From positions 4,278,001-4,342,000 of the forward strand of contig NC_016472.1 of NCBI RefSeq assembly GCF_000226095.1: DNA of 64,000 nt, read 5' to 3'. This DNA is from Thermothelomyces thermophilus ATCC 42464 (taxonomy: Eukaryota; Ascomycota; Sordariomycetes; Sordariales; Chaetomiaceae). Within the stretch, counting starts at the first letter, position 1, and the number at the start of each line of letters is the position of its first letter. Below, piece by piece: positions 3,010-47,656 of this stretch. The notes beneath the pieces were generated by a model. The model saw only the letters and a list, made by a program, of their open reading frames with translations. It did no database searches and was not told where the DNA came from. The translations under genes were made by a program, and so were the position numbers.

Positions 3010-5251
3010 TCAAAACGGGTCCAGATCGACGTGAGCAGCAGCTTTCCCGCGCATTCGATACCGGCTTTTTCTGGACTGCCTCTCCTCGGTGAACACCGAC
3101 TGCGGCCAGTCTTGTTTGTCCTCGCAGTCCGAGTTCCGTGAGCATTCGTCTCCTTGGCCGCACCTTTCCAGCTGCAAGATGCCTCCACGCGCGCGGTCGC
3201 AGCAAAGCACCAGAAGATCTTGACCACCATTCTCGAAGGAAATACCCCCGAGCTCACTGAACACGTCGACCGTCTGCTTGGATCGGAAGGTCTGAGCATC
3301 GATGATGTTGATGAAGTCGGCCTCCTCGGCGGCGACAAGAACCCGCTTGCCGCTGCCGATGGGCGAGAAGCGCAGACTCCGCACGCCCGCCATCTCGCTT
3401 CGTATCGTACAGACAGAGACTGCGTTTCCTGCGCTGTCAGTGAACCGGCGAGCATCCCATATCTTGACCGTCTTGTCCTGGAACGCCGTGGCAATGGTCC
3501 ACCCATCGTCAGCCCAGTCACAGGCAAAGCCGTAGTCCCGGTGTCCGGATAACCTCTGTAAAATATCTGGCTGGCCTTTTGGAAAGGTCGACTCGGCGGC
3601 CGTGATGATTACATCGAGGCTGTCGCCCACCATGACGCGTAGCCGTCCGTCCGGTGACAAAGCAGTGCAATTCGGGGCGAATTCATGCACTTCTTCAGAC
3701 AGCCAGGTCTCGGCGGCGAGATCCAGGACACGGAAGCAATTATCGTTGGACGCAAAGGCCGCCAGGGGAGTCGTCGATGTTCGGGCCTGATAAACAGCCA
3801 CGTGGTTCGTGATGCCACTGACGCTGTTTGTGATGACACCTTCGTGGCAGGCTGTGTTGTCTGGCTCGCCCGAGTCCAAGTGGCGAAGCAGATACTGGCC
3901 ACTAAAACCGCCCGCAACCAGAACACCGTGGCCAGCGGCCAAGGTCGAGACTTGGGAGTGAGGGGCGTCGCTCAGCTCCATGACGGGTCGACCGTGGCCG
4001 GACATGGGGTTGAACTGCTGGACGGAACCAATAGCGGGGTAGAATACGCGCGAACGCGAGGTGCTCGCAAGCACGTTGCGCAGCTGGAAATGCGACAGGT
4101 GAACGTTCCACCTGATGTCCATACGCCGAAATCTGAAGAAACTGTCCCTGCGCGGAAGAGCAACGTCCGGGAGATCGGGCTGCGGCGTGATGAATCAGCT
4201 TTCCCCTTCCGCTTACCGAGTAGCAAAGCCAGCAGGACGCACTCACCGTCCACCTGTCCGAGCCAGGAATGTTCATATAGTTGCTGTATGTCAATAGCCG
4301 GCGCTCCCTGGCGTCTCGTCTTGTAACCCCTATGTCTTCCCAGTCAATTCCCTGGAAATCACACTGATCCCCCTCCAGGTCGTCATATTCAATTGACTTG
4401 TCCTCGAAGGACAGGAGCCTGTTGACCCTAGCAGGCCAGGGACAACTCCCTCGAGCCGTGCCGTGCAAAATCCGGCTCTGGCGCGCCCAGTGGTGGAGGA
4501 AGTCAACCAGGCCGGGGTTGGACGATCCGATCGTCGCAGGGTTCGGGTTTGAGAGGGAGAACGGGTGTGTCCAAGCGAGTCCCGGAGGAAGCGGATCCCA
4601 AGCGAGGGCGGCGAACGGTGCTGTGGCCATAAACGTTGCGGCCTGTGCATGGGCGCCAATGGTTGCGGTCTGCGCTTCGGGTGTCACGGCTGGATCGGCT
4701 GCGATATCAGACTCCGGGTTGCTGCTGCCATCCGCAGCCCAGGGAAGCTCGGCGTCGCTGTCTGACCCTATCGAATCATCGGTGTCCGGGACCCCGTCGG
4801 CAAAGAGCTGGTTGACCACATAGTCCACCAGTGGCGCGCCGGCGTCATCCGACATGTCCAGGCTGTCTGAATCGTAGGGATCCAGATGATCTTGATAGGT
4901 GGCGGGCTCTCCAAGAGAAAACTGTTGGGAATGGATGGGACAGGCGTGTTGACCAGCTGAATGGAGCGCGATGTCGACATCGTCATCATCCGTGCCCTCG
5001 TCGTCTTCCCCTTCCTCCTGGTCATCGTCTGGCTCGTCAAGGCCCTGATCCTCGTCGTCGGCGTCGTCGAGGGTATAGGACGACACCTCGCTTTCGTGAT
5101 CGCGGTTGCTCTCGCTATCGGGATTGAGTGTTGCTTGCGATGAAGAGACCGAGGAGTCGGTGGCGAGAGGCCCGAGTCTGCGGGGGAGATCATGCGCAGG
5201 CGGTGACGCCATGGGGAGAGGCGCCATGATCGGCATGGCGGAGAGTGGCAT
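3010..5251 (-). CDS. WD40 repeat protein with acidic N-terminus, two exons
   Basis: Exons read 5251-4247 and 4179-3010 on the minus strand. The 67-bp intron (4180-4246) has donor GTGAGT, a CTGAT branch site and acceptor GCAG, phase 0. The product is about 724 residues. Residues 1-330 are low-complexity with a strongly acidic Asp/Glu stretch (EDQGLDEPDDDQEEGEDDEG). The second half has degenerate WD40 repeats, the clearest being DKTVKIWDARR near residue 572 after GHRDYGFACDWADDG. The RRMDIRWNVHLSHFQLRN stretch at the exon 2 start and the overall form recall the uncharacterised S. pombe C2A9.03-type WD40 family; this is from memory. A propeller suggests a protein-interaction scaffold, and no catalytic motif is visible. 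The last 40 residues are Arg/Lys-rich and less protein-like, so the true C-terminus may differ through an unseen intron. Confidence 0.8.
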
Positions 5252-7992
5252 CTGAAATACGATGCGGTGAGCTGGGCGGCAGCCGGTGACGCGGGCTACA
5301 TCGGCCCGGCTGGGGGATGCCCTTCAAATTCTTGCTTTCCCAAATGCCGCCCTTCCGCGTCCTTTCCACTCCGCCACTCGGGCGCGAGGCGTTCTGCTTA
5401 ACCGACCGAATGCCCTGTGGGGTCCAAAATGGAATAGGCGCGGACCAGCGACTTGGGTCGCTCGGCCAGGGGACAGACCAGAGGGAATCGAGCCAGTCGC
5501 CGACGGTTATCACGCCCGTCGACGACCACTAGTCCACCCTTGGAGCGGGAGGGCTCAGTCTCAGCGGCAGCTGTGTGTGTGCCTTCCACGTCGTATTCCG
5601 ACGTCGAGTCGGGGAGATGGCTGGGCAATACGGATTATATATATATATGTGTGTGTGTGTGTATGTGTGAATGTATGTACGGAGTACGACTTTCAGATAG
5701 ACGTCGGGAAAAAAAAAAAAAAAAGAATCAAAGAAGAAGAGAAAGACCCCTGTCTTGCTTTTTAGAGCGGGTCGCGTCGAGAAGAGGAGGAACAAGCCCG
5801 ATACTTGAGAGCAATACCTGGAAGTCCAATATGTCTCCCAGGTTGCTACACTCGCCCCAGATTCGGTAGAAGTGACGAGTGAACGACGAATTGGGCTGCT
5901 GATGAGTGGGGATTCCGGAGGTGCTGGGGTGCTAATGTGGACTCGGCCGCTGCTACCCAGTGCAGATGCATGACCGGGTCTCAGCTTCGCACTGTTCTGG
6001 AGAAGGCAGACAGACTAGGGTATCAACTGGTGTAATCCGTAGTGTACTGTCGAAAGAAAGGCAAGCCTGGCGAGATGCTCGCTTGCTTTGCCTTCCACCA
6101 AATTTCTAAGCTTAATGTACCTTACGCATGTGCAATCGGTTACATATATTGAATTTTGACCCTGCTGCCCATACTAGAAGGCACTCTCTGTATGTAGTAC
6201 ATACATACATACCAGGTGCCCACCTTCTACAGTCATGTATGTACCCCCCCCCCCCCCCCAAAAAAAAAAAAATGGAAAGGGCGCCCAGCCATCGACTTTC
6301 CCCATTGAACTCCGCCTCTGGGGTCCGAACCTCTCCGGCTTCAATCTGTTGGTTTCTCGCCCATGACTCCCAGATACAACAAAACAGCAACAACGACAAA
6401 AAAAGCAAATCAAGGAGAAACTCTGGGTTGCAGGACCCAACCATCTCCTCGCGCTGTGTAGCGTATGTACTGTACATACATACATTACATACTCGAGTGG
6501 GAAGAGGTGGGGGACCGCAGACAGATGGCCAGCGATGTGTATACTCCGTACTTAGTGTGGTAATGGACAATGAGCCAGCAATTTCCCAAGTCGGCTTCGT
6601 CGAGTCCCGATGGCAGGCACGCAAAAATGCATGCTGCATGCGGGGTGCTGAGTTGGGGGAGCTTCGGGCTCCAAGACGGACAGACAGAGGAACTTCGGAG
6701 CCATGCCACCAGGCCGTGCAACCCACCCCTTATGCTCAACTTGTCGCCTTGCATCAGCCGTTCCGAGTCACGGCTTCTTCGCCTTTCCTCGTACCCGCAC
6801 TCTGTGACCACCCGACGCGTCGCCGTGGTTGGGTCGAGACGCACGATCCCTCAGGTGGACGGTTGGAGGCGCACTACCTGCCGTATGTGTATGTACCTAC
6901 ATACATACATATATTAGGTCCTCATGCTAACCGCCACTATGCTCGTAGTGGTGCTACCATGCTCAGTAAAGAAGCATAGTGTAACTATGGGGATAGTTAC
7001 ACTAAGGGAAGGGATTGTCCGCTGCTCCAGTCCCGCGGCAACCCCATTACACGCACCCTCCCCGGTCTCGTCTTGACCCAACGTGGCTCTTCCCCTTTCT
7101 CCAGTGCAAAGGAACAGCGCCCGTCAATGTGATGCATCACAAAAAAGCTCATGGGCCTGCATGCGCTGCGTGGACTGCGGTTGGCTGCATCATCCCCCAT
7201 TTCCACGTTGGCGGGTCTTCTGGGTGGCTGACCGCTGGTGTGGCTTTCACTCGATCCTCACCGGATGTCTCAGGAAACCGATTGGGAGACCACTGCCCAT
7301 CTTGGCTTGTGACGGTGGCGTTCGGTCAAGAGTTCGTGGCGCCCCTCCGTTCTGTTTCTGCGCGGGGGGGTGTCTCCCACAGTCGGACCGGTCCGACCAG
7401 GAAGTGTAATCCGTGCCGAGCAGTCATCTTTTTGCTCTGCAAGGAACTTCAGCACCACGCAACAGCATGATGCTGGGGTCTGCGGCAGACAAAACCTCCA
7501 TGACGCTTGAAAATCAGACTGATATTGATATTAACAGCGTACTAAGGAATCTTCATGCGACTATGTATGTACAAGCGCCGCCATGCTCATCATAAACCAA
7601 GGCATTGAGAAGGGCCAAGACGTGCGCCATCCAGATGCTATCCACGTCCCGTCTAACCGCTGGTATCATGGCCGATGAAAAATAAAAAACAGGGCCTGAG
7701 GGCAGTGTGAGGAAAAGCGAAGATAAGCACGGAAGAAAATTCGCCGAGTCTCAAACCACCAAACCCCTCCCATCCTTCCTCTCCCCATCCTTCGTTCCCC
7801 AAAAAAACAAAAAAAAAAAAAAAAAATATTCCGCCAACACGACGCTGGCAACCCCTCAGCTGAGAGCCAAAATAAAGCAGCCGCGCTGGCATGAACGGGT
7901 CTAAGCCGCTGAAGAATATCACTCCAAGCAAGCAAGGAGTTGGGAAAAAAAAGACCAAGAAAAAAAAATACCTCCGAACAAAAGTCCCAAGC
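5252..7992. other. Intergenic region between WD40 gene and chitin synthase
   Basis: No supported gene. It contains a (TA)n(TG)n microsatellite at about 5637-5662 and an A-tract near 5709-5724. A C16 run joins directly to an A13 run at 6244-6272. ATAC/GTAT tracts lie near 6196-6215, 6470-6492 and 6893-6912. Two copies of TACGGAGTA sit at 5678-5686 and 6542-6550 (the second inverted). A perfect inverted repeat is at 6977-7004 and a 14-bp palindrome at 7128-7141. It is upstream of the WD40 gene and downstream of the chitin synthase. Confidence 0.6.
6977..7004. repeat. Perfect 12-bp inverted repeat with GGGG loop
   Basis: TAGTGTAACTAT at 6977-6988 is followed by GGGG and then its exact reverse complement at 6993-7004. 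A second, weaker inverted repeat (CCACTA, six-base spacer, TAGTGG) lies just upstream at 6934-6951. It lies in noncoding DNA about 1 kb downstream of the chitin synthase stop. It could form a stem-loop in RNA or a cruciform; no function is shown. Confidence 0.7.
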
Positions 7993-10900
7993 TCAATGAT
8001 CCGAGTAGTAACCGTCGTACGGACCATGGCCATGGGATAGGCTCCCGCTGCCGACAACGTTTTCAGTTGAACCCCAATAGCTGTTGTTGCGGATTCTGCG
8101 GTCACGCTCAAACTCGGCCCACCGCTTCATGGTGATCTTGCTGCTGTCGAACTCGCCCTCGTACTCGATGCCTGCTTTCTTGGTCTTCTCGTTCGCGGTC
8201 TTTCTGGTGTCGCCCCAGGAGAAATCGTCAAACTTCCAGAAAGAGTAGGTTGGGAGGATAAAGTTCCAGACGGGCAGCGAAAGCAGGTAGATTAACATCC
8301 AAAGGACATACGACCAGCTGTGTGCTGTGACGACGATCAGCACCGCTGGCAGGCCGAGAATCAAGGCGAGCAGGACGAGCGGGATGATCTGTGGAGGCGA
8401 ATGAATGATGGAAATAATGACTAACAAACCAACGTTAGATTCAGGGACACCGCTAGGGCCGAGGGCCGACCTTATTGTACTTACCGACATAGAAAGTGAA
8501 GGCAATGGCGGCGGGCAAGACAAGGGTGCCGATGAGCTCGATAAAGACGATGAACTGCATGCTGAAGCAGAACGTGCCACACAGATCCTTGACAAGGACG
8601 AGCTCCATCAGATTGTGAATGGTCGAGTTGATCCACCGACGGCGTTGGGAAAGCAGCACCATGAACTTGTCCGGCACCGTCGTCTTGCATACAGCCTGCG
8701 GCACGAACACCTGCTTGCGCTTGGGGAAGGTTCGCAGCATAAGAGTCGACAAATACCGGTCCTCTCCCAGAAGCAAGAGGTTCTTCTTGTGCAGGGTATC
8801 AACCACGTTCTCCGAGTAGTGCTCAACCACATCTGGGTTCGCCAGGATCGGGACCCAGTAATTCTGAGCGCCCTTGGGCGCCTTGATGCGGTACATGCAG
8901 AAACATCCGGGAAGGCAGGTGACACCGCCAAAGACCGACTCGAAGGACTTGGCAAGATGATGGGAGATGAAGTACTCGAAGACCTGAATGGCCGAAACCC
9001 AACTGGCCCGCTTGTTCGCAATCTTGGTTTCGCCGCACAAACCCATGATCTCCGGGTCTTTGACCATGGCAGATATCATGTGCGTCAGACTGTCGGGGAA
9101 GACTTTCGTATCGGCGTCCACCATGAGTACGACTTCATAGAAGTCGGGCGAGATGCCCGTAACCTTCCACAGTCCGTTAAACATCTCGTACTCGAGTTCT
9201 GTCATCCGCTCGTCGAACATAACCTTTTGGAGGAAGGACATCAGGATGATCTGACTGTCGCGCTTGCCGCGGTTCCCCGGTTTCGCCTTGGTCGCTTCGT
9301 CCGGAGTACCGCATTTCACGACAACCATCATGGGAACCCGCTGCTGCTTCTCCGGCGGAATGGCCGAGTTCGCGCCGTAGTCGTAGAAACCCGAGTAGAC
9401 CTTGGCCATGTTGTGACGCTTGGAGCCGGTGGCAACGGCGACGTACGAGAATGCTTGGACTTCCTCCGGCGGGGTGCTGTGATCCTTCAACATGCCGAGG
9501 ACAATGTCCGGGGTCGAAAACTCTTCTCCTTTCCCCTTGATGATGCCATCGCAGATGACGAGGATCACCTTGTGACTGTTTGGATAATCCGTCATGGCAA
9601 TCGAGTCCAAAGTCGTACGAATACCAAGCTCACCCTCCGAGTATGCAGTAACCAAGCAGATCGCATGGGCCAGGGGGAAGCCGAAGGGCATCCAGTCCGA
9701 AGGAGGCTGAGGAACCACGGCCTCGTGGATGAAGCCAGCAGGCCCGAGCCCGTCAGTGGCGCTGTTACTCGTGGCATACGGATCGGACTTGAGGAAGCTT
9801 GACCGACTGTCGTTACCTTGCCGATATATCGAATTGGGGCTGAGGAGTTGGCCGGCGGCGTTCTGGCTCGTCATGGTGGTGGGGACCCCAGACTTCCGAT
9901 TAGCACGTTCGTTGCCGTAGACGGCCGAGAACCGAGACGTTGTGGGTAGAATGCTGCTGCGCTTGCTTTGCCGGTCGGAAGAACCGTTGACGCTGCTGCC
10001 AATGTCTCCTGGCATGCGGGGCGGAGCGCGGTAGATGTCCTCACTCCAGTCCTCAATCTGCTTGTTGCGTTTCCGCGGGTCCGACGTCTGGGACGTCTTG
10101 GCGGCAGCATAGGTTTTGCTTATGAACCATTGGAAGACCAGAGCGAGCACAAATCTTGCGATAACAACAGAGAGAATCAAGACGAGCGAGATATACAAAA
10201 CGACCTGAGACGCGATGCACCCGACGGTGTCCGTATCGACAACCCCGACCTTCAAGATCTCCTCGAAGCACTCGGCATACTGCTTGTCGTTGGAGGACTG
10301 AAACGCGCGGGTGATGTCGCGCCCTCGGATGGCCTGGTTTGCTGCCGAATTGCGGTCCCTCAGCTCCTTGAAGCGGTCGGGATAGGTAACCTGGGAGTCG
10401 TTGAACCAGTTCAGAAGGTCTAGATCAAGAACGTTACCCGAATAGACAACCAGGTTGCGGGAATTGTTCTTGATGTCATCCCAGGTGAAGTAAACGTCAG
10501 CCGCTCCAGTGAGTTGCAGATAAAAGGAGTCGCGGGCGGCAGCGCTGGTGTGACAGGCGTAACCGAGGTAGTATGGGATTGTCAAGTTGGGTTTCGACGA
10601 ACCATCCTGGTTGAACGTTGTGCAAGGGAAGTACCAGGCCAGATTGCCGTCGTCATCGGTTGGGACGTCGGAATCCGGGGCTGCTTTGATGAGCCCCTTG
10701 CACTTGCCATTGACGTTCTGGAACAGGAAACTCCCGTCCTTACCGCCGTGCTTTTCCGGGAGGTCAAAAAGCACGTTCGCGCCGCTGCCGTCCAGACGGC
10801 GGGGAATGCCCTCCGCCGGAGGGTGATGGGACTGCGAAAGATCGTAGGCCGATCCGTGGAAGATCATGTAACCGGTCCCGACCTCATTCACACGTAAACG

Positions 10901-11722
10901 CAACGGCGGGTTGCCGCAGACGACTTGGGTAAACCCGAACGTGAGGAAACCGACAACGGCCATGATGAAAAGAATGATGCTGATAAGACCCATCTTTTCC
11001 CTCCAGGCCCTCTGCTGGGCCTTGGAGGGCAAACCAAAGCATTTGAGAGCGAATCCGGGGGCCCAGAACGTCACGATGGCGCAGTAGATATTCCAGAGAC
11101 TCGGTGGCCGCAACTGCTCGTCCACTTCTCGTTGACGCTTCGATTTCAAGTCTTTGCTGATCTTGCCGTGTTTCGCCCCGCTCGATGCCTTGCCCCTTGT
11201 CCGACCTGACTTCTCCGCCTCGGCCGCACGGTGCTTTGTTGATCGATGCCTCCTGGGCGGGGTGACGTCTGAGAGAGCCTCGTCGTTCCTCGAAGCGGAG
11301 CCCGACAGGTCGGTCGTCCCTTCCAGATCTTCCACGATCGGGTCATTGCCCGTCGAAGAAGGCAATGTATTCATGTTTGCAGCATGTTTCCGGTAGTGAT
11401 AGTTCGGGTGGTCTTTCCCTATCCTATTCCTCTCCGGGCGGACCAGGCTCCTCTTGCGCTGAAAAGGGGGGTCGATGGGCTGTCCATGGGGTGACGAGGG
11501 CGACAAAGGGGTTCTCTCTATTTCCGGATTAGGAGACGCAATAGTCTCGGCGAAGGAAGATGCTGATGGCCCACGTTGATGGAGAGATTGCCCGCCGCTG
11601 ACCGGAGCATAGCTGCCGGCCTCGAGATCGGCAGGGCGCGACTGGCGCCGCGACTGCGAGTGTCGGTAGCTATGGCGTTCTTCGTACGAGGGCGTCGCGC
11701 CCGGTCTCTCGGGGAGTGACAT
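7993..11722 (-). CDS. chs-4: Class IV chitin synthase (Chs3-type), two exons
   Basis: Exons read 11722-8485 and 8420-7993. The 64-bp intron (8421-8484) has donor GTAAGT, branch CTAAC and acceptor TTAG. The product is 1221 residues, the usual size of class IV enzymes. Start is the ATG at 11722 (MSLPERPG); the frame is open slightly upstream but without an ATG. It polymerises UDP-GlcNAc into chitin at the plasma membrane. Residues 1-240 are a disordered cytosolic tail containing [15 protein letters not shown] membrane span lies near 242-264, a luminal region carries [19 protein letters not shown] (cytochrome b5-like in this class), and a second span lies near 511-535. The GT2 core has MVDADT (about 866), GEDRYLST (about 987) and QRRRWINST (about 1024), followed by C-terminal spans. 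The enzyme class needs an Skt5/Chs4 activator, and the next gene encodes one. Confidence 0.96.
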
Positions 11723-12417
11723 GGTTGCTGGGAAAATCAACCAAAATTAGCGATCGCGATCAGAGATGAGAGAAGCACGGAGCGCGATCGAGCGGGAGAT
11801 CCGCCCAATGCGATCAGGCCTCTTGTTGGCGATCGCCTCGACAGCGCGACGACAGCGGAAAGGAATGGGCGGAGGAGCAACGCGGTCGATGTTTGGAGAC
11901 TAGAGACCGGCCAATCACCTCGCAGGCCGAGAACGTTGTTGGCGCCACCGCCAGCGAAAGAGAGAGAAAGGTGACCTACAAGGTGCAAGGTTTTGGCCCG
12001 GAAACGGCTAGTTGAGACCGGATGGAAGTTGGCGTCCTTGCAGGCTGCTGCCCAGTTCTGCTGCAGGGGGGCGAGGAGGCCACTCAGAAGTGGGCGCAAT
12101 GTGTTGATTGCCGGGAGAAAAAAAGGAATTTTTGTGCGGTTGATCCGGATTTCACCAAACGAAGGAAGGAGGCGTTTGAATGCTTGAGTGCCTCGTGTTG
12201 ACCAGGCTGCTATTCCGTGCTCCGCAAGATTCAAAGGCGGTGCAGCGGCACAGGAATAGGTAGAAGTGGGCGAGTCGGCTGAGTTGAGCAATGAAGCGAA
12301 TTAAACCGGGCACCGGGCGCGAAGAGGACGGCGACTGGCTGGGCGAAAGCAAGGCGGCACGGGATTTAGCAGCGGTTTCAAGGGCAACGGCAATCGAAGA
12401 CAATCGAGTCACCCTCG

Positions 12418-12512
12418 CTTCCGGCTTCCCGCCTCCTGCTTTCTGCTTCCTGCTTCCTGTTTCTTGCTTCTTGCTTCTTCTTGCTTCTTGAGTCCTGCTT
12501 CCTGCTGCGTGC
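12418..12512 (+). repeat. CT-rich degenerate minisatellite (TTCCTGC/TTCTTGC units)
   Basis: About 95 bp of imperfect 7-bp units such as CTTCCTG, TTTCTTG and CTTCTTG occupy this interval. All purines are on the opposite strand. It lies about 700 bp upstream of the chitin synthase start. Similar purine/pyrimidine tracts are frequent in fungal promoters and 5' leaders; function here is unknown. Confidence 0.65.
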
Positions 12513-15231
12513 TGCACAAAGTCGAATGAAAAACAAAACCCGGCGATGTGTCAATGGCTCCAAGATAGAAAGCCAACGAGCGGCACCGGAGATATGATAT
12601 AAAAGAACGAAGCAAAGCAGTACTTAACGAGGGACAGAAGTATCGGAGCTCGTGTAGTGAGCAAAAGGATAGCTGACGGCGCTCAGAGAGGAAGAATGTC
12701 AATCGGCCTTCTTGATTCTGGAATCTGGACACCTTCGAACCTGACCTGTTCTGGTCTTGGAATTCAGGGGTGATCGCGCACCGTGCACGGCTGACCCCTT
12801 GCTTCTCGCTTCTTTTGCACCACAAACGTCAGTTTTACCCACAACAGGCCGCCAAAAAGAGACCAATACGGATATGGGATCCTGTTCTCGTCCAAAAACG
12901 TCGCGGGGTTAGGGTTCTCATACGTAGACTTTAGGAGTTGGCTCGGGACCAAGCGGTACATAAACCGTCCGCTGCATACGGACTGTGAGCTCCATAACAG
13001 GTAGGGAATGTAAATACTCTGTGTTCTCCATACTACCTGTACATCTACTCCGCAGAACCTGACTCTAGGACAGGGAGAAGAGGCGTCACGGCATGAACCA
13101 GCCTACCTCTATAGAATCTTTAAGAGAACAAGCAGCAAGTTCTACAAGTACGCAGTGCAGAAGGTTCATCTCAGGGCGCCGGATCCTTCCAACACAGTGT
13201 TCTGTTGCTTGGCTTTTTCTCTTGATCACTTCTCCGGAACATACGTATTGTATGTACGGACGTACGGAGTAGTGCATGGACCTGGATGGAGCTCGTATCG
13301 GTAAACTACGAATTTGATTACGGCGTGAGCACTGCCAAGACCTAGGCGCTGTGTGCGTGGGGCACTCGCCAGATTTCGATTTCGATCCGCAGTCTGATCC
13401 CCGCCCTATAATTCAACTCTCCTTTTGAATGATTGTATCGCAAGTGACATCAGTCCGCTGCTGGACCCTTGCTCAACCTGCTGCATTCACAACGCCACAC
13501 GCTGTACAACCCCGATCCCGACAGGTTGGTTTCCACCGTCGCCCGTCCGTCGGTACGATCCGACTTAGCTTCCCCAACTCGGATCTGGTAACAACCCAAA
13601 TTCGGGACTTGGGGAATATTCGAATAGCGCAGGATCGTGTCACTTTAGAATTCACTACGTTCTCAAGAACTCACCCAAGCACCTAATAACTACACTAATA
13701 AGCAGGGGTTGGTTGCATCAGTGCCACTTTCGTGTTACCATCTCGTGTGAGCCGCTCCGGCTCCTCCTGTGTACGAAGTAAAAAAAAAGCTCAATGCCGT
13801 CACGGGCTCGGCCGACTCATGCCTGGGATTACAAATTCCTCATGCATCCTCTATAAAGCATACAAGCATGCTTGTAACTACGCAGCGTTTCGACGGCAGG
13901 TCCTTTGTGCTCAAGTACATACACACATCGTTTTGCGCTACGCACGGCAGCGCTCCGACAGACCCTACATGTATTGCACATACCTACATGTACAGTACGG
14001 CGTGACCGGATGCACCATGTGTGACACCGGCTCGAATGGTGAATGTCGGCGTTCAAACGTCTGCGATTGCTGAATGTGTCCAATATAGTACCGGACGTCT
14101 ACACGACGCATCCGGCAAGGACAAGGCGATTCGCGAAAGTTGAGCTGCTTCTTGTTTCGAGATGGTTTTGACTCCTCTGTTCCCAGTAAGAGCTCGGGTC
14201 TGGGGCGCGGGTCCGTAGGATGTGTCAGGCTGCCAACAGCAAGATGATAACGCCTCCCTCAAATGTCCCACGGAGCGCTGCGGACAATCGTCTGCCTTGG
14301 ACCTACATGGCCCAACGGTCTCAGATGTTGTCACAATACCGTACAGATGATTGAACCGGCGGATTTGCCTCCTCATCACGGGTGATGTTGAACCATGCCA
14401 ACGCAGGCGTGCTTTGGCTGGAGGAGGGATGCACGAACACTGCCTCAAATACCACTCATCCACACCGTCGACAACTGTTGAGAGCCGACCTTCTCATCCG
14501 CTGGCGCGGAAATGTACAAGCTACCAGGGATGTAGACAGTGGGAACTTTTCTTTTGCTTCCTTTCATGGAATATAAATACATGTATGTATATAACGATCC
14601 TTTTTCGTCTGTTTGTACTGTTTCTTCGATTTTGTCGGCGACGACAACCATATCAGCCTTGTTCCGAAACCCGCTCCGGAGGGGCAACGTGGCCCGGTGA
14701 CGACCAGATGTCCGGATGATCTGCAGCGTGGTGCGGAGCTGTCGGAAATATCTGTAAAGTCGGTGCCCGTTCTTTAGTGGTGGCCGAAGCCACTGAAGAG
14801 CCCAGTCGACAGTAGCTAGTTAACCCTGATCATATGGTCACGCTCTCGACTGACGGCTTCAGCATCAACCACGGCAGGGCATGCAAATCCATGAATTCTA
14901 CCATCTTCTTCCGCCACATAAACCCGCGGTGTACTATATGTATGTACACTAGTGTGCAGTTTCTGATCTCGTGGCGGGGAATCTCGTTGATGCTGCGGCT
15001 GAAACAGCCCAGCCAACCAACTGGTTTCCCACGCTGCGCCACGACATGGTAAAGCATGCGAGCTAAAACAATGCGCGAAAGACTCGGAGACTGAAATGGA
15101 AAGCAGGCAGTAGCTCGCAGCAGCGAAAGCGAATTGGACCTTTGAAACAGTGCGGAAGTGGAAAGCGGCAGCAGGCTATTAAGAAAACCGGCTCGTGAGC
15201 TGTCCGGTGGAAATCTCGCAGTTTGTTTGAC

Positions 15232-15245
15232 CTACCACGTGGTAG
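15232..15245. promoter_or_regulatory. 14-bp palindrome with CACGTG core
   Basis: CTACCACGTGGTAG is its own reverse complement. The CACGTG core is the site bound by many bHLH proteins, including the Pho4/NUC-1 type encoded in this window, and a 14-bp perfect palindrome is unlikely by chance at one spot. It is about 1.9 kb upstream of the activator gene and 3.5 kb upstream of the chitin synthase. Regulatory use is inference. Confidence 0.3.
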
Positions 15246-17157
15246 TCGTATGTCAGGTATGCCCATACGGGTGTACGGGCGTACACTATTACACTTGGTT
15301 CTTGGCCAATGCAAGGCCGGGACCGGGAGCGCAGAAAACGGAGAAGCCCCGATGTGGGCACAGAGCCCTGCAGCGCAAAATATGAACTAGCATACGAAGT
15401 GCACGTAATGTCTTGCAATGACAGGAGGCACAGCCGAGACCATAAAGACGTTGCTAAACCGAGAGCGTTCAGGGCCCGCAGTTAGTTACTGCTCATACAA
15501 TTTTGCGTATGACGACTTGGCGCCGCTCTTTCTGCTGTCAAGGTCACCAGGTATCGGAGTACGAGTTGGATCTAGTTTGGACGGGTGCCTAACACGGAAA
15601 ACTCGGCTGTGGCTTCTCTTCCCGCCCCGCCCAACGAAATGTTGGTGTGAACCGGCGGAGAGCAGCAGTCCAACTCAGCGGAGACAACTTTGTTAAACGC
15701 GCCCGCTTCGTTGGCCCGTGTGCGGCTTGCTGGTGCTGGTTACGGTGCTGAGCGCATCCATCCTCTGGATTGCGCGATTTGCAGTCGAGGCTGATCGCTT
15801 GCTTGTACTCCCACAATTTGCACAATGCCTGCATGGGCAAAAAGACGCACAGATGTCCTTCTGCGAACTGGGCGAAATGTGGCATGCAGGCGGTCAGCTA
15901 GAATAAACCCACCATATTCTGTATGTGTGCGGATAATTCGAAGCAGGGGCGAAGCCACCAAGGAAAACTGACCAAGGAAAAGGAGCACACTGGTTTCTGC
16001 AATTGGACGATGAAAATCCCCCCGTGCAGGTGGGCGAGTGGAGACCCGAGCTTCCACCTCAGGTCAGGTACGGTACCTGTAAATAGGCAGCTCGGCGCCC
16101 AGGCGCGAGGCTCAACTGGCGCTTGCTCGTTTCCTCGGAGCCTCCGTTTTCGCTGCCGTATGGTCAGCCAGGCATAAGGTAATAAATAGTGCAACTACTC
16201 CTGCGTGCATGTCTGCATACCTACCCACATAAGGTGCCTAGACGCCTACTTACCTACAAGACTCCCGGTAGGTAGCTACCTTAGGTACCTAATGTCCGGA
16301 GCCTCAACTATTGTAGTGTAATCCATAATACATAATAAAGGCAAGCACGCCAAGGGAGCCCGAAGCTCCGGTCTGGGGTGTAACCGTCCACTAGTTACTT
16401 GCCTTTCTGCCATGCACGCGAAAAAGTCACCATTAATTCGTGCACTAGTCAGCATTACGGGGCAGAGATTCGCACCGTCGGGCGCTCCGTTCTTGCACTT
16501 GGCAAGGCCACCACCGGCCACCCACAGCCCACGCTGAGACGGCCCACGGGTGCCGGGACGTCTTCCCTCGCCGATCCGTCTCCAGCTGCTGGAACAGGGT
16601 GCAGTCTCCTCCTCCACTCTTCTGCCTCGTATGTCCCGTCTCGGGTCGCCCGTCGAGCCTACCTCAACCCCCCCTTCCGGTATTCTCATTCAACCCGACG
16701 CTCGCTGACTCCTTCCCTTTTTTTCAATCGCTCGTCGCCGTCCCCTTCGCTGCCGTGTCGCCATCGTCGCTTCCACTCGTTTGGTACTGGACGTGCACCG
16801 GCTGGCCGTAACTGCAACCTTCTGTGGCTTCCATTTCCTGCGAGCCCACTCGTTAGCGGAGACATCATAAGTTGAGCGGCCGATCCCCAGAGACCCTGCG
16901 CTTTTTGGACGAACGATCCAGCGGGCCAAACAATTCTTTCCAGATGCTCGAGCGTAACGACGACAATCGAGCGCAGTAGACCCCCCAGTTTGCCAAACCG
17001 CCCTAATATTCCCCAAGCGCTTCGGAATCGAAAGCTTTAGTACAAGCATACGTTACGCTCACCCGGCCAGCGGACTGCCTCCGCCAGTAACCACCCCCCC
17101 CCCCCCCCAGCGAATCCCCGACTCTCTCGGGCGACGTCGCTCACCTCACCGCCCGCA

Positions 17158-19489
17158 ATGGCGGCCGTCGGCTCTCAACCGCCGTCCGCGCCAGCCTCGC
17201 CCAGCAGCCCCAGTCGGAAACCCGTCGGTGGGATGCATGGCTTGTCCCCCATCGAACGCTACGACTGGGGGGAGAATGTGAAGCCTCTGTCCGGCATGCC
17301 CGTATCCGAGTCGCCGAGGCTACGACAGTCTCCCGTCTCGCCCGTCAAGGTCAACTTTCAGCCCGACGACTGGGCCAGGCCATCCACCGGGAACATCGAG
17401 ACGCACATCCCGCACGGCCAGCCTGCCCCCCTCCCGGCCCTCGACCGTGCCCTTCCAAAGACGCCCGATGCCCCTACACCTCCCCCGCACACGCCTTCCT
17501 CCCATCCCGAGCACGGCCATGCGCAGACTTCAGCTCCCGATGCCTCAGATTTTCGGCCGGCCTCCAGTAGCACCCAGAAACCGTTAGAGCCGCAGACCGC
17601 CGCCGCCCTGAGTTCCAAATTCGATGAGCTGAGCATGAGCGACCAGCTCGGGGGAGCAGGGGAGAACCGAAACAGCAGGGAGTCGGACGCCACGGCTAGT
17701 ACCTCGCGGCAGCAGACGTCCATCGAGTCGTCAGCAACCACAAGCGCTAGCTCGGTCTCTGGGATCCTCGATTCCTCAGACATTCAAGACAACTCGGCAG
17801 ATGCATCTGCAGAGAGCTCTGTCATCGACGATCCCGCGCTCCGGCCCGAGCCCGTCCCTCAGTTGCAATATCACCATTCGGCCTTTCTTCCACGCCCCGC
17901 CAGCATGGCGGTGACTCAGGATCCGCGAGCTCAGTCAAACCCGAACCTGGCCGAAGGCGGGGCTATCAACCGCCACCTAACGCCAACTACCAACGCCCAT
18001 AGGAGGAGCTCGTTACCGCGGCCGCAATCTGCGTACTCGGCGTATTCGGACCTGGGTCCCCGCGGGCGTTCCCCTGGCCACTTGGGCGGCTCACAGATCC
18101 GGGCTCCCTCGGCTCACTCTCGGAAATCTCCCGAAACGCGCCCATCCTCGTTTGCGGACTTGCTCAACGTGCCGTACCCGCAGCCGGCCCCGGCGCCCAT
18201 CACGTTTGACAATTCCCAGCTACGGTCCGTCGTGGGGAACAATGCGTCTCTGCTCAGCACCGAGAAGACTCTGGAAATGTACCGGCAGAACGTGAAGAAG
18301 ACAAACGACTTTTCCATCCTGTATTCTTTTGCAGTCTTTTTGATATCCACCGCTCAGGAACAAGGTTTGGATTTCGAGGATCTGAAGAAGGCCAAGAGCC
18401 CTAAGCCCGGATCGGGAACACCGCCTCAGTCGTCCCCATACGAATTGATTCGGGAGGCTCGCGCCATTCTGCAGAAGCTGGCAAACAACAGCTACCCATT
18501 TGCCCAGTACTACCTTGCCGATGGCTACGCGTCGGGCTTGTTCAGCAAGGGGAAGGAGGACTACAACTCGGCATTCCCGCTTTTCGTCCTAGCTGCCAAG
18601 CACGGCCACGCCGAGTCGGCGTACCGCGCCGCGCTGTGCTACGAATTCGGCTGGGGATGCCGCAAGGACCCGGCCAAGGCTGTGCAGTTCCTCCGCACCG
18701 CGGCCTCCAAGAGGCATCCGGGAGCCATGACGAGGCTGGGGAAGGCCTGTCTGTCGGGTGATCTGGGAGAGAAGCGGTATCGGGAGGGTATCAAATGGCT
18801 CAAGCTCGCGGCCGAAGCGGCCGACACCATCTATAATGCCGCTCCCTACCACCTCGGCTGCTTGTACGAGACCGGATATGGTGACGACGTTTTCCAGGAT
18901 GAGAGCTACGCCGCCGAGCTCTTCACCCAGGCCGCAGACCTCGGCCACCCCGAGGCGAACTACAGGATGGGTGACGCATACGAGCACGGGAAGCTCAACT
19001 GTCCCAGGGATCCGGCCCTCAGTGTACATTTCTACACGGGCGCCGCCGAGCGCGGTCATGCCGCAGCAATGATGGGCCTCTGCGCTTGGTATATGGTAGG
19101 CGCGGAGCCAGTCTTAGAGAAGGACGAAGAAGAAGCCTATGAATGGGCACGGAAGTCGGCTGAGCTAGGTAAGTATTTCTGCCGATGCCAATTTCGCCGC
19201 CCTCACGGAGAGCTAACTCAAGCCGTTCGATTTGTCAGGTTACGTCAAAGCGCAATACGCTGTTGGATACTTTACCGAGATGGGCATAGGATGCCGCCGA
19301 GACATTCTCGAGGCGAATGTTTGGTACGTCAAAGCCGCCGATGCGGGCGATGAGCGCGCAAAGCAGCGCCTTGCTGCGATCCGCGCTGCGGTCAGCGGAG
19401 GGACGCCGATGGACGCCGCACCGCCTCGGAATGCTAAGGTCAGGAAGAGCGGCGGCGACGGTGACTCCAAAGAGTGCATCGTAATGTGA
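17158..19489 (+). CDS. SKT5: Chitin synthase activator, Sel1 repeats and CaaX box (Skt5/Chs4 type)
   Basis: Exons are 17158-19168 and 19239-19489. The 70-bp intron has donor GTAAGT, branch CTAAC and acceptor GTCAG, and rejoins AELG to YVKAQY. The product is 753 residues. Residues 1-345 are Pro/Ser-rich and disordered. From about 425 to 715 run Sel1-like repeats, for example GHAESAYRAALCYEFGWGC, PYHLGCLYETGYGDD and YVKAQYAVGYFTEMGIGC. The protein ends in CIVM, a CaaX box with Met at the last place, which predicts farnesylation; yeast Chs4/Skt5 ends similarly. By family it recruits or activates a Chs3-type (class IV) chitin synthase at sites of wall growth. Its divergent neighbour is exactly that enzyme. 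Fungi often have several paralogues, so which orthologue this is remains open. Confidence 0.93.
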
Positions 19490-20679
19490 AAGGTTTGGGG
19501 GGTTGGGAAAGAAAAAAAAAATTCGACACTGCGGTGAGCCAGCGGACGGGACTGATTAATTGTTTAATACGTCTCTTTGACACAAGCGCCCCATGGTCCG
19601 GCTGATCCTCGGGGGGGCCTCAGTCGGACGGTTGAATTGTTGAGGCGTCAATAATGTCAACGGTAATACTTTCTTGTCTTTTTTTTTATTTTGTTTTGTT
19701 TTCTTTTTAGATTCATCTCCCTGGAATCGGGCATGCGGCACCTCGCCTCGCAACACCAACTTATTATTGTTGTCACGACTTCGATTCTCTCGGGTGGAGT
19801 TGGTTATGGGGACTAGCCGTGCCCAACTGTGCTCGGCAGTCCGGTGATCCACGGGGGGTGCATGCCAGAGATTCTCCTTATTTGGAGACTCTATTTACAG
19901 CTGGACAAGTACATAGCAGCATGGGAACATCGAAAGAGGGTTAGAGAGGAGGGTCAGAGATGAATTTAAGCGGAAGAATGGAAGGGGGTAGTTCGCCTGC
20001 TCGGTGTCTGCCTACCCCTTTTGCATCTCAGCACACACTCCTTTGGTGGTTTGGCGTCAGGCGCACACTGTTATTCCGTTTGGATTATGTCTAGGCAAGA
20101 AGAAGACGATAATGAGCTTCGTACTTACAAAAAGGAATCGATCATGTCCAGGTAGTGTTCTCACCTTGACTCTCCCGATGGTTAGTGATTAGTTCTATTG
20201 CACCGGGCGACCCAATGCACCGTGAGGATCATTTTTTTGGAGCCAATGTTCTATCACCAGCGGCTTCCAGCACGTAGCAATTGACGAGGCGAGGAGGATC
20301 CGAGGCCAATCCTCACGATACAGTGGGAGGGCATATATACAAAGCGTCGTTGCTGAATGTAACACAGCCAACAGACCAAGATTAGGGAAAGCAAACCTTT
20401 CCGCGCCATGATTAATGTAGAAGAGAGCGAGGGACAAAAAAAAAACACACCAGAAACTAGCCGAACTCCGAGTCGCTCCAACGCCGAGCTCACAACCTGT
20501 CTACACACAACTGATTTGGTCCCAGATGTTCCCCTATATCCAGGGTTCCTCTTGCTTTTAGATCCCATCATTCCCGCTTCCAACGGACCCGGACGATCGA
20601 TGACATATGTTTCAAACCCATGCTGACACAACGAGAACGCTTGGGCATCGCGAATGTTATATATATAACCATCTTTGTC
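19490..20679. other. Convergent 3' region between activator and transporter
   Basis: No gene seen. The stretch contains short A/T tracts (for example near 19509-19518 and 19679-19690) that fit 3' untranslated regions of the two converging genes. Nothing else stands out. Confidence 0.6.
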
Positions 20680-22599
20680 TCACAGCCGCCTCAATCGGGC
20701 CGTCGACCACGCCGCCACCAGGGAGCTCAGAGCGCCCAGAAACATGCAGACGGCGATGGCATTGGGCCCGGTCGGGTCGCTATGCTCGCTGGGAAGGGCC
20801 TCGGTAGCCAATTCGGGGCTCTTGCCGGGCTCGAGCAGCGCAAAGACGACGCCGCTCATGAGGGTGCTGAGAAACTGTGGAATGGTGACGTAGATGTTGA
20901 GGATTCCAAAGTAAACGCCGCTCAGTTCGCCCGTCGAAGTGTGGGGGGCGCCGCCGCCCGAGGCGCGGCTGCTCTCGAGGGCCGCCGGGCCATGCTCGAG
21001 GCGGAGCAGCTCGATGCTGCTGATGTCGTTGGAGAGCCGGCGACGGGGGGTCACGGGGCGGATGGCCGGGCCAGCGGCGCCGCTTAATTTGTTGACCTCC
21101 ACCCCGAGGAAGGTGACCGGCGCCCATTGGGAGAGGCACCAGGGGATGCCGCAGAAGGCGACAATGGCGGTGGCGAAGCGGAAAGACGTGGCGAATGGGG
21201 TGAAGAACATGGCGAGCGCGAACAGGACACTGCTTGCGACCCACGCGGTCAACAGGTCGGGCTTGACCTTGTTGAAGGCCTCGATCAGGGGCTTGAGGCT
21301 AGCGGGTGGGCGGTGGGTGAAGGTCTCGTCTTCGGGAGCTTGGATCAGGGCCGGGAGAATCCAGGCGCTGGCGAATGACACGGTCGAATATACGGTCAGG
21401 GCCATGCTCCCAATGCGGCCCATGTTGCCCAGCGCATCGTTAGAAGCCCTGGCGTCGGGGGAGACGTCGTAGCGGAAGTAGGTCTCGCCGACCCAGGTGC
21501 TGCTGTAGATGATAAAGGGAAACCAGCCAATCCATGACCAAAACACAGCGTTGCATATGCCCCGGATGCGAGGGGGCAGCGTCAGCAGCGTGGAGTAAAT
21601 CTGCCGGACGACCTTGAACCGACCCTGGGCCCGCCGAGGGTCGCGCCGCACCGAGACGAGGACGCGCTCCGTGACAGCCCAGCACGTAATGGACGAGGTG
21701 AGCAGCATGCCCAGGGCGGCAATGATGGTGAGCTGCTTGAACTGGGTGTCGCCCAGCGTTGGGCCAAAGATCTGCACGAGGTCAAGGGCTCCCATGGCAT
21801 AGCCGATGATGTGGCCGAGCGAGTTCATGCGGCTCGCTGTGGGCAGTCAGAAAGCTTGCGAAGGGCACGAATGCTAGTCGGTCGAACTTACACCAGGCAG
21901 CCCCCGCCTGCTGCTTATGTATTGGCAAAGTGTCGACAACGAGACTCCTCGCGCAGGACATGACTGGGCGCTCGGTGTTAGCGGCACACGGCATCGCTGC
22001 TGAAGGACTTGGGACCAATTTGTGGGTGGGATATGGATCTCACCTGCATTGATGGAAAAGTCCACGCAGTAGAGGGATAGGACGGCCAGCATAATGGTCA
22101 ACGCCCGGGCTGTCGTCGGGTCTGTAACGAGAGAGCCCACGATTTCCTTGGTGAAGCCCAGAGCCAGAAGACTGAGGGCAACAACTACGGAGCCAACAGC
22201 GATGATGGGCCGTCTCCTGCCCCATCTTGACGTGGACTCGTCAGCGATGACCCCGATGATGGGTTGCACGATCAAGCCCGATAAAGGGCCGGCAACCCAG
22301 ACCAACGATGTCTGTCCCTTGGACAGTCCGAGCGATAGGAGGTATGGCGTGCAGTCTGCAGCATGCAAGCTTTAGCGTTAACGTCCGCCTGGGTTGTGCG
22401 CGGGGTGGGAAGCACAACGTACATGTCATTTCAACGCCCCAGGTGAAGCTGCAAGTAGCAATGGGTCAGCAACTCGATGTCCCATGCGAACGCAACGCGC
22501 ATGTACGGACGTAATACCGATAGAGACGCAGGTCAAGAGCACCATGCGCATGGTCTCGGAGCTACCCTTCACCTTCGGCTGCCCTGCCCATGTCGACAT
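20680..22599 (-). CDS. SUT-type sugar:proton symporter (GPH family), five exons including a 26-nt microexon
   Basis: Exons read 22599-22511, 22448-22423, 22355-22044, 21963-21892 and 21836-20680; all phases agree and give 551 residues. Introns are 62, 67, 80 and 55 bp. The last two show CTAAC or CTGAC branch sites. The first intron needs a non-consensus donor GTCCGT. Its splice gives SIGITFTWGVEMTYCTPYLL, which matches the first helix of plant SUT and S. pombe Sut1 carriers. The loop between helices 2 and 3 has the hallmark RWGRRRPII, and VVDTLPIHKQQAGAAW follows in a later loop. About twelve membrane spans are expected. It should import sucrose, maltose or related alpha-glucosides with protons across the plasma membrane. 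A long hydrophilic loop (PVTPRRRLSNDISSIELLRL) precedes the last spans. TATATA lies about 105 bp before the ATG. Confidence 0.88.
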
Positions 22600-24834: not shown

Positions 24835-26138
24835 ATGGATCTGGTCAACCAGTGTGTCAACACCACGCCCATCCCACTCCCGTGACATTCCCTGCTTTGC
24901 CCAAGACACCCTCTGCCGTCATGCTTTGTAGGCTGACCCACTCAAAAAGCTTAGAAGGCCGGCTCCTCTTTGCAGTTCCCAAGAGTATGTCCCGCCCACA
25001 GTGACCTCGTTCGGGTTCAGTCCCACCATCCATCCATTCATCCCTCGGACCCCGCGATTACTGACCCCGCAAAACCCGCGTTCAAGAGGGCCGTCTCCTC
25101 CAAGCGTCTCTGAACCTCCTCGAAGGCGCCGACATCCAGTTCAAGCGTGAGAACCGCCTCGACATCGCCCTCGTCAAGAACCTGCCGATCGCCCTCGTCT
25201 TCCTCCCCGCGGCCGACATCCCCACCTTTGTCGGCGAGGGCCGGGTCGACCTGGGCATCACGGGCCACGATCAGGTGCAGGAGCACGATGCCGGTGTCCG
25301 GGCGCTCGCGCGCGCCCGGCGCATGAGCAACGAGTGGGATCCCAGCAGGACTGGCAGTGCCAAGCCCCAGGGCTGCGAAACCATCATGGACCTCGGTTTC
25401 GGTGCTTGCCGCCTGCAGGTCCAGGTGCCCGCCAAGGGAGAGTACACCGAGAGCAAGGATTTGATCGGCAAGAACATTGGCACCAGCTTCGTCCACCTCA
25501 CGCGCGAGTACTTTGCTCGCCTCGAGATGGAGCAAGAGGGTATCACGGACCCGGCCCAGATGGAGGGGAGGAAGCTGCGGACAAAGATCATCGAGCTCAG
25601 CGGGAGCGTGGAGGCGGCCTGCGCACTGGGCGTCGCCGACGGTATTGTCGATCTTGTCGGTGAGTCTCGGGCTGAACAACCCCTTCACCCCCCTTCCCTC
25701 CTCTCTTTATTTCCAGCCGACGTATAAGCCTCTTAGACTGATGATCCTCTCCTCCCCTCAGAATCCGGCGAAACAATGAAGGCGGCCGGTCTTAAAGCCA
25801 TCGACACCGTGGTCGAGACGTCCGCCATCCTGATCAAGTCAAAGGCGCCCAGCAACCCGGCGCTGGTTGATCTCATTGCCTCGCGCATCCGCGGCGTCAT
25901 CACGGCCCAAAAGTACGTCTTGTGCCAGTACAACGTGCCGCGCGCCAAGCTGGCCGACGCGACCCGTGTCACGCCGGGCAAGCGCGCCGCCACCGTCACC
26001 TCGCTCGATGAAGAGGGCTGGGTGGCCGTCAGCGCCATGGTGGAAAAGAAACGCATCGCTCCCGTCATGGACGAGCTGGTCCAAGTCGGCGCCGAGGATA
26101 TCTTGGTTCTTGATATCCACAACACGAGGAGTAGCTGA
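24835..26138 (+). CDS. HIS1: ATP phosphoribosyltransferase, four exons
   Basis: Exons are 24835-24851 (17 nt), 24950-24984 (35 nt), 25087-25659 and 25762-26138, giving 333 residues. Donors are GTGTGT, GTATGT and GTGAGT, with CTGAC branch sites in the first two introns. The rebuilt N-terminus MDLVNHLEGRLLFAVPKKGR matches the yeast His1 start closely, which supports both tiny exons. It condenses ATP with PRPP, the first and feedback-controlled step of histidine synthesis in the cytosol. EGRVDLGITGHDQV lies in the catalytic half. The PRPP loop is in DGIVDLVESGETM. The C-terminal regulatory domain carries TPGKRAATVTSLDEEGW. Compared with yeast there is an extra loop of roughly 25-30 residues after GHDQVQEHDAG. 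It is probably a lineage trait, since the frame stays open. Confidence 0.96.
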
Positions 26139-43473: not shown

Positions 43474-44338
43474 TGATGTTCGCAGAAGTGTTGAGGGACG
43501 CAAGAAAGTGCCGCCAAGTTTGTTGGAGGAAGAGAAGGTAAGTGGGGGGCGAGTGCCGCGAGGCGCGAAAGACCTGAAAGGCTGCACTAGGACGGGAAGT
43601 AACGTAGGTGGAGCCACCCCACCGTGCATGCCGCAAAGAAGCAAAGAAGCTCTGAGGCTGAAAGCTCCACGCCAAGCTTCCAAGGGTAACTATCTTATGT
43701 TCTTGAGTACTAGTAAGGTACTGAGTGTACCTAGGTATGTACTTAGGTACGAACTACTGCTCTCAAGATACCTCCCCTCCTGTTGACCAGCTAGGGTCCA
43801 GTGCACCCACCTTGTCCACGGAAAACGAGTCTACGTCACCATGGTGCGTGGATTATCCGCCAAATCTTAGACGCGGTATGTTTGCCCTGTAGGGTTTGTC
43901 AGTACCTACTAACGCACCTCGGGTAGTTCATCAGCTCCTAAGGCAGCAAGTGAAGCAGCCTGATTATCCCTGCCGTACTCCGCATGTATTATACAAGCTG
44001 AATGTAATAGTAATTCGCAAGCATTTTACCATTTTCACATCTCAAAATCCCATCACGTGCGCTGGCGCGAAGGCGCGTCTGTTCCGTCGCGTCCCTCGCT
44101 TCGTGATTTGTTTGGAGGGGCCTGCAGCTGGGCAACCGGTTTGCTGGCTTGCGAAGCGCCTGACGACATCACCACCCGGGCGCCGCCTCGAGTTCGCATA
44201 TCGTGGCTGTAACGAGGAGATATGGCTCGGCCTAGGCAACTTACTTCGGTCATTGTCTAATGTGCGTGCGCCTTTCCGCTTTGTCTCCTCCTCATTTTTG
44301 GCTGCCGCAACCCCTAAACGGAGTCCGACGCGTCAGCA
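43474..44338. promoter_or_regulatory. Divergent promoter region MEX67/MPH1
   Basis: 865 bp separate the two start codons. The stretch contains ATCACGTGC with a CACGTG core at 44054-44059 and an AGGTACTGAGTGTACCTAGG-like patch near 43717-43735. It has no frame with coding character. Both promoters must lie here; individual elements are not proven. Confidence 0.5.
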
Positions 44339-47300: not shown

Positions 47301-47656
47301 TTGCGGACGACGTTTTCTCATCAGGCAACCGGCAGAGATCAACAGGGCCTACAAGTCCTGGATCGTCTAGCCTCTTCCTTAGAAAAGGACGCACAGAGCA
47401 AGATCCGACGACGGCCGAAAGGCCGTTTTACGAACCGATCGAGTTCGATCCAACCCAGGACACAGACGACGAGATGCCGGATCTGATTGAGCTTCATGTT
47501 CAAAGCACGAAGAAGGCGGCAGGACCGCCGAGATCCAGGACGACATATTTGGAAGAGGAGGACACTGATTATAGTCTATCGGAGCTGTCTCCGCGCAGGC
47601 CGCAGGCGAAGAGGAGGCGACAAGTACTTGCCGATAGTGACGATGACGATGACTGA
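44339..47656 (+). CDS. MPH1: ATP-dependent DNA helicase Mph1 (FANCM family)
   Basis: A single exon encodes 1105 residues, the usual size for fungal Mph1. It begins [20 protein letters not shown], and an FRQTTLWG motif comes before the helicase core. Walker A is PTGLGKT (about residue 190) and Walker B is the DEAH box in [13 protein letters not shown] (about 291). Motif III is LALTATPGS. The C-terminal helicase lobe has [12 protein letters not shown] and motif [14 protein letters not shown] (about 628). The insert between lobes, [15 protein letters not shown], is typical of FANCM/Hef. It unwinds and reverses forks and D-loops to limit crossovers, acting in the nucleus. The acidic, disordered tail ends in DSDDDDD. 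No intron is apparent. Confidence 0.97.

Follow-up and report, generated by a model that had tools for sequence, protein, structure and literature searches.

Does a gene for a biosynthetic enzyme lie beside the gene for its activator by accident of genome history, or because the two work together? The question is raised by a locus of Thermothelomyces thermophilus ATCC 42464, where a chitin synthase gene and a gene for a Sel1-repeat activator stand head to head. In Saccharomyces cerevisiae, the genes for the corresponding proteins, Chs3 and Chs4/Skt5, are not adjacent, and both lie on chromosome II; a first-pass annotation of the locus had called the yeast genes unlinked, which holds as regards adjacency. 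We analyzed a window of 64,000 nucleotides (C1:4278001-4342000 of genome G000, which comprises 38,744,216 bases in 7 contigs). We conclude, with a probability of about 0.93, that the two genes are the known, conserved head-to-head chs-4/csa-1 pair of filamentous Ascomycota, consisting of a class IV (Chs3-type) chitin synthase and an Skt5/Chs4-type activator.

The enzyme and activator genes

The two genes and the region between them are laid out as follows.

7993-8420, minus strand: class IV chitin synthase exon 2, with the stop codon; in-frame join across the intron; Chitin_synth_2 model positions 419-527
8485-11722, minus strand: class IV chitin synthase exon 1, from the ATG; DAD, EDRYL, and QRRRW motifs
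11723-17157, no strand: divergent region between the start codons; contains the 5' leader and promoter of each gene; no gene recognized
17158-19168, plus strand: Skt5/Chs4-type activator exon 1; Sel1 repeats preceded by an N-terminal part of low complexity
18610-19168, plus strand: four of the five Sel1 matches (18610-18711, 18847-18948, 18949-19059, and 19060-19170, the last running two bases into the intron)
19239-19489, plus strand: activator exon 2; fifth Sel1 match (19247-19351), CaaX box CIVM, stop codon

The first-pass annotation had placed a Chs3-type enzyme at 7993-11722 and an Skt5-type activator ending in CIVM at 17158-19489, and both genes prove to end exactly there, to the base. 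The synthase gene runs on the minus strand from 11722 to 7993, is interrupted by one 64-base intron (GTAAGT...TAG), and encodes an in-frame product of 1221 residues. Its exon 1, which covers 1079 of these residues, matches Pfam Chitin_synth_2 at 784.6 bits and CHS4 at 106.6 bits, the CHS4-like domain (PF22997) lying at residues 410-494. The DAD, EDRYL, and QRRRW motifs accompany the Chitin_synth_2 domain, as expected of a class IV chitin synthase. Both of the class IV regular expressions given in PMC4141765 match the protein, and none of the three for class VII, the two for class VI, or the one division 1 expression that was run does so (the class II and class III expressions were not run). 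The four Pfam families returned for exon 1 do not include a myosin motor. Solved structures that match the synthase at an E value of ≤0.001 comprise 11 distinct sequences, namely, other chitin synthases and hyaluronan synthases. By the Pfam matches and both published expressions, the enzyme is a class IV (Chs3-type) chitin synthase.

The activator gene lies on the plus strand (17158-19489), has one intron, and encodes 753 residues ending in ECIVM. Of the Sel1 matches that the genome search returned, at least 18 in all (its counts are lower bounds), five fall in this gene, and its exon 1 reaches 110.6 bits against Pfam Sel1. With both a Sel1 repeat array and a C-terminal CaaX box, the gene beside the synthase is of the Skt5/Chs4 type; judged from its terminal methionine, the CIVM tail is probably farnesylated. 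The solved structures that match it at an E value of ≤0.001 (17 distinct sequences) are general Sel1 proteins only, and no Chs3-Chs4 complex is named among the structures matching either protein at that threshold.

The region between the genes

The synthase and activator start codons are 5435 bases apart. The gap holds 12 stop-to-stop frames of 120 residues or more, and a Pfam search (E ≤ 0.01) of 10 of them returned nothing; the other two, which overlap, and all frames below this length lay outside the search. Rfam gave no match across 7000-20500, and ARAGORN found no transfer RNA in the window. The highest coding score in the gap, based on codon usage, was 17.9 (11839-12180, minus strand, just upstream of the synthase). 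This value was equaled or exceeded in 5 of 200 mononucleotide shuffles made in 200-base blocks, and the two main exons scored 278 and 195, on a codon table trained on seven coding stretches of the window that include the synthase and the activator, which raises the scores of both genes. A genuine small exon scored 21.3, indicating that codon usage has limited power for short exons. No hidden gene was found within the limits of the four approaches, and the claim that the pair is divergent with no gene between is borne out to the same extent; no convincing gene is present, and a short or intron-rich one could still lie there.

Repeats of at least 20 bases in the gap are limited to a CT-rich stretch with five copies (12418-12518), a single sequence present twice, and a single inverted pair. 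The CT-rich stretch, upstream of the synthase and possibly within its leader, consists of five imperfect 42-base copies spaced 14 to 17 bases apart.

Two regulatory patterns were considered as signs of a shared regulator. The Rlm1-type pattern CTANNNNTAG does not occur in the whole window (1-64000), versus 4.94 occurrences expected from shuffles (standard deviation, 2.36). The cell-cycle-box-like pattern CGCGAAAA occurs four times in the window versus 2.66 expected, one of the four being in the gap, at 16417; four or more were seen in 30 of 100 shuffles. A named shared regulator finds no support in either pattern, one being absent and the other at about chance level. The gap itself is long and does not point to a simple, compact bidirectional promoter, and longer-range shared control could still operate across it.

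Skt5-type paralogues in the genome

The genome search recovered at least five Sel1-bearing loci, three of which are classed as Skt5 type by similarity: the gene in the window, L021 (C1:6523500-6529500), and L023 (C5:3519500-3524500). L022 has two weak Sel1 matches and, like L024, which we take to be Hrd3/Sel1L-like, is only distantly similar to the Skt5-type genes. L021 is 45% identical to the window activator over 280 residues, has a proline-rich N-terminal part, and ends in GECSVM. L023 is more distant (29% identity over 358 residues to the window activator and 34% over 283 to L021) and has its repeats near the N-terminal end, followed by a long proline-rich C-terminal part. Its CVVM tail (positions about 3540-3675 of the locus) is assembled across the last intron, whose donor follows the Cys codon, such that the final exon holds no more than three codons plus the stop.

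Neurospora crassa likewise has three Skt5-type regulators in its genome (PMC7389182, PMC12561907), of which CSR-3 is reported to have the architecture of L023 and the same CVVM tail (PMC12561907). In architecture and tail, L023 matches what would be expected of a CSR-3-like protein, and L021 is likely the CSA-2 orthologue. The window activator is probably an orthologue of CSA-1 or CSA-2; we take it as most likely to be that of CSA-1 because it is linked to the class IV gene, an assignment made by linkage and not by tree. The CaaX box had seemed a candidate mark of the linked paralogue and is rejected as such: it terminates all three Skt5-type genes (CIVM, CSVM, and CVVM), so the tail cannot pick out the one linked to class IV. 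L021 (C1, about 6.53 Mb) and L023 (C5, about 3.52 Mb) both lie far from the pair, which we count in favor of its being chs-4/csa-1.

Conservation in other fungi

The first-pass annotation presented this arrangement as surprising, which is not upheld, as the arrangement is already in print (PMC4141765, PMC7053769). In six Aspergillus-group genomes, Pacheco-Arjona et al. (2014; PMC4141765) reported the activator gene to lie next to the class IV gene and to diverge from it, and in this respect the Aspergillus pair resembles the one studied here. According to the same source, which gives no statement of adjacency for these species, the class IV block also holds the activator in three Fusarium genomes as well as those of C. 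globosum, N. crassa, and P. anserina. In Trichoderma atroviride and Trichoderma reesei, chs4 and csa1 are head to head (PMC7053769, 2020), again a class IV synthase with its activator. There, a glucanase gene directly follows csa1, whereas here the next recognized gene past the activator encodes a SUC1/MFS-type transporter. In N. crassa, the locus numbers of CHS-4 (NCU09324) and CSA-1 (NCU09322) are two apart (PMC7389182); a gene NCU09323 may lie between them, and the likeness to N. crassa lies in the same kinds of protein and in three Skt5-type regulators per genome. S. cerevisiae, too, combines Chs3 with a Sel1-repeat activator, Skt5, for which farnesylation is cited in PMC12561907.

Evidence that the two proteins act together also comes from published work. 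In N. crassa, CSA-1 has been identified as a protein that interacts with CHS-4 (PMC7389182, citing Fajardo-Somera et al. 2015), and in A. oryzae the synthase, the activator, a glucanase, and a kinase show associated expression (PMC4141765). These reports support the earlier proposals that the linkage is conserved (six Aspergillus-group genomes and two Trichoderma species, with the shared block in Fusarium and Sordariales) and that enzyme and activator work jointly. The comparison of gene order in other Sordariomycetes that the first-pass annotation had suggested is answered in print and favors conserved linkage. The layout is confirmed as real in this genome and, from these papers, as conserved and already described in other filamentous fungi; the earlier interpretation is partly supported, being mostly right and not new. 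Viral contigs scanned with synthase exon 1 (as six peptide patterns) gave no match.

Why the genes may have stayed together

In yeast, the activator attaches to the synthase through its Sel1 array and is held at the membrane in part by its prenylated tail. By analogy with yeast biology and Neurospora data, the Sel1 array of the window activator would bind the class IV enzyme, and its prenylated CIVM tail may help to hold the activator at the plasma membrane. So placed, the activator would activate or anchor the synthase at septa and growing tips, where wall is laid down, and the linkage may have persisted since joint expression is favored. The behavior of N. crassa CSR-3 cautions against treating the tail as nothing more than an address: loss of its CaaX cysteine left localization unaffected on normal medium and, at half calcium, led to less accumulation at the fusion point and more lysis (PMC12561907).

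Several observations weigh against this account. Cytochrome b5 (PF00173), which has been described for class IV enzymes, was not returned for synthase exon 1 at an E value of ≤0.001 (the CHS4 model was), and GH17, the family of the glucanase that neighbors the pair in Aspergillus and Trichoderma, has three matches in the genome and none in the window. Deletion of chs-4 in N. crassa is reported to cause no defect in growth or shape (PMC7389182). Deletion of chs4 in T. atroviride slowed hyphal elongation and gave an N-acetylglucosamine (GlcNAc) level of 83.7 ± 14.6%, versus 99.7 ± 6.1% in the wild type (PMC7053769). Because of these phenotypes, strong selection on the joint dose of the two proteins is not evident. 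In addition, the Trichoderma expression data, in the passages cited, are given for chs4 and not for csa1 (PMC7053769).

The strongest competitor concerns only the reason for the linkage and leaves the identity of the genes as it is: an ancestral neighborhood may have been kept by slow rearrangement, with each gene using its own promoter and no control in common. We consider this a serious contender, albeit one with somewhat less than an even chance of being correct. For a shared promoter, 5435 bases is a long distance; the two members of the wider Aspergillus cluster that were searched for are elsewhere (GH17 not in the window, and the DIL domain of class V myosin on C2 and C7 only), and the recognized genes past the activator, encoding the SUC1/MFS-type transporter and HisG, look unrelated to the cell wall. 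However, the pair is adjacent or within one block from Aspergillus to Sordariomycetes, and its expression is associated in A. oryzae (PMC4141765). A WD40-type gene also lies at about 3010-4194, and the kinase, PP2A, and WD40 members of the cluster were not searched for.

In a more specific version of common control, the gap would act on both genes as a single regulatory block that tolerates distance, fixing the proportion of class IV synthase to activator and thereby holding the pair together across filamentous Ascomycota as the remaining neighborhood reshuffles. We regard this as unlikely, at roughly half the weight given to conservation by slow rearrangement.

It is improbable that the linked activator is instead a general Sel1 adaptor that serves several chitin synthases, in which case its position would say little about partner choice. 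All three Skt5-type paralogues end in a CaaX box, and CSR-3 of N. crassa has been proposed to target CHS-2, so Skt5-type regulators may also serve other classes (PMC12561907); against this, the N. crassa protein found with CHS-4 is CSA-1, and the locus numbers of the two genes differ by two (PMC7389182). Chance adjacency in a single strain has nothing in its favor and is negligible, as a random upstream neighbor would be of the Skt5 type in about 3 of 10,000 cases by our own estimate (three such genes among ~9500; PMC4061905), and the arrangement recurs in other genera (PMC4141765, PMC7053769).

A second synthase pair in the same genome

The class IV gene is not the only chitin synthase gene in this genome with a divergent partner. 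A class V-type synthase gene (minus strand, C1:9558430-9559953) and a class VII gene (plus strand, C1:9570588-9572191) are head to head (L025 and L026, together C1:9558430-9572191). Two of the three published class VII expressions match the latter; no expression is specific to class V, to which we assign the former gene by inference. Together they form the known csmA/csmB-type arrangement, which is reported as head to head in 95 Pezizomycotina species (PMC5353729), with a 2957-base gap in Magnaporthe (PMC3276572). A gene-order survey likewise lists a conserved divergent chitin synthase pair, the classes not being stated in the part cited (PMC2871058). With the class IV gene beside its activator and the class V and VII genes head to head, the division 2 synthase genes found in this genome are all in divergent pairs.

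The surrounding genes

In Aspergillus, the pair belongs to a wider cluster whose further reported members include a Ser/Thr kinase, PP2A (WD40), and another WD-repeat protein (PMC4141765). Searches for two of its members, the glucanase and class V myosin, gave no match in the window here. The DIL domain has two matches in the genome, on C2 and C7, and none in the window; as with GH17, the search was made exon by exon, which can miss split genes, and the genome search covers the contig beyond the window. The window extends only ~8 kb past the synthase, and the block is thus not fully covered on that side.

Past the synthase, a WD40-type frame (3010-4194, minus strand) matches a THOC3 propeller at an E value of 2.4e-12, with matches below the curated cutoffs; it could, but need not, correspond to a WD40 protein on the list of PMC4141765. 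An acidic frame (3902-5323) lies just upstream of it. Past the activator and convergent with it are minus-strand frames at 20680-22371, probably one gene, that resemble the plant sucrose transporter SUC1 (E = 2.8e-5) and MFS_2 (E = 1.7e-8). The next recognized gene after it contains a HisG (ATP phosphoribosyltransferase) exon on the plus strand (25065-25727). Farther away, a 1112-residue frame with DEAD/ResIII and Helicase_C domains occupies 44318-47656 (plus strand), and a protein O-mannosyltransferase of the cell wall and secretory pathway (PMT and MIR domains) is encoded at 58197-59843 (minus strand), ~39 kb from the pair.

Overall, T. thermophilus adds one further filamentous ascomycete to those with the published enzyme-activator gene pair. 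The core pair is present here where the glucanase and class V myosin, reported as part of the wider cluster, lie outside the window.

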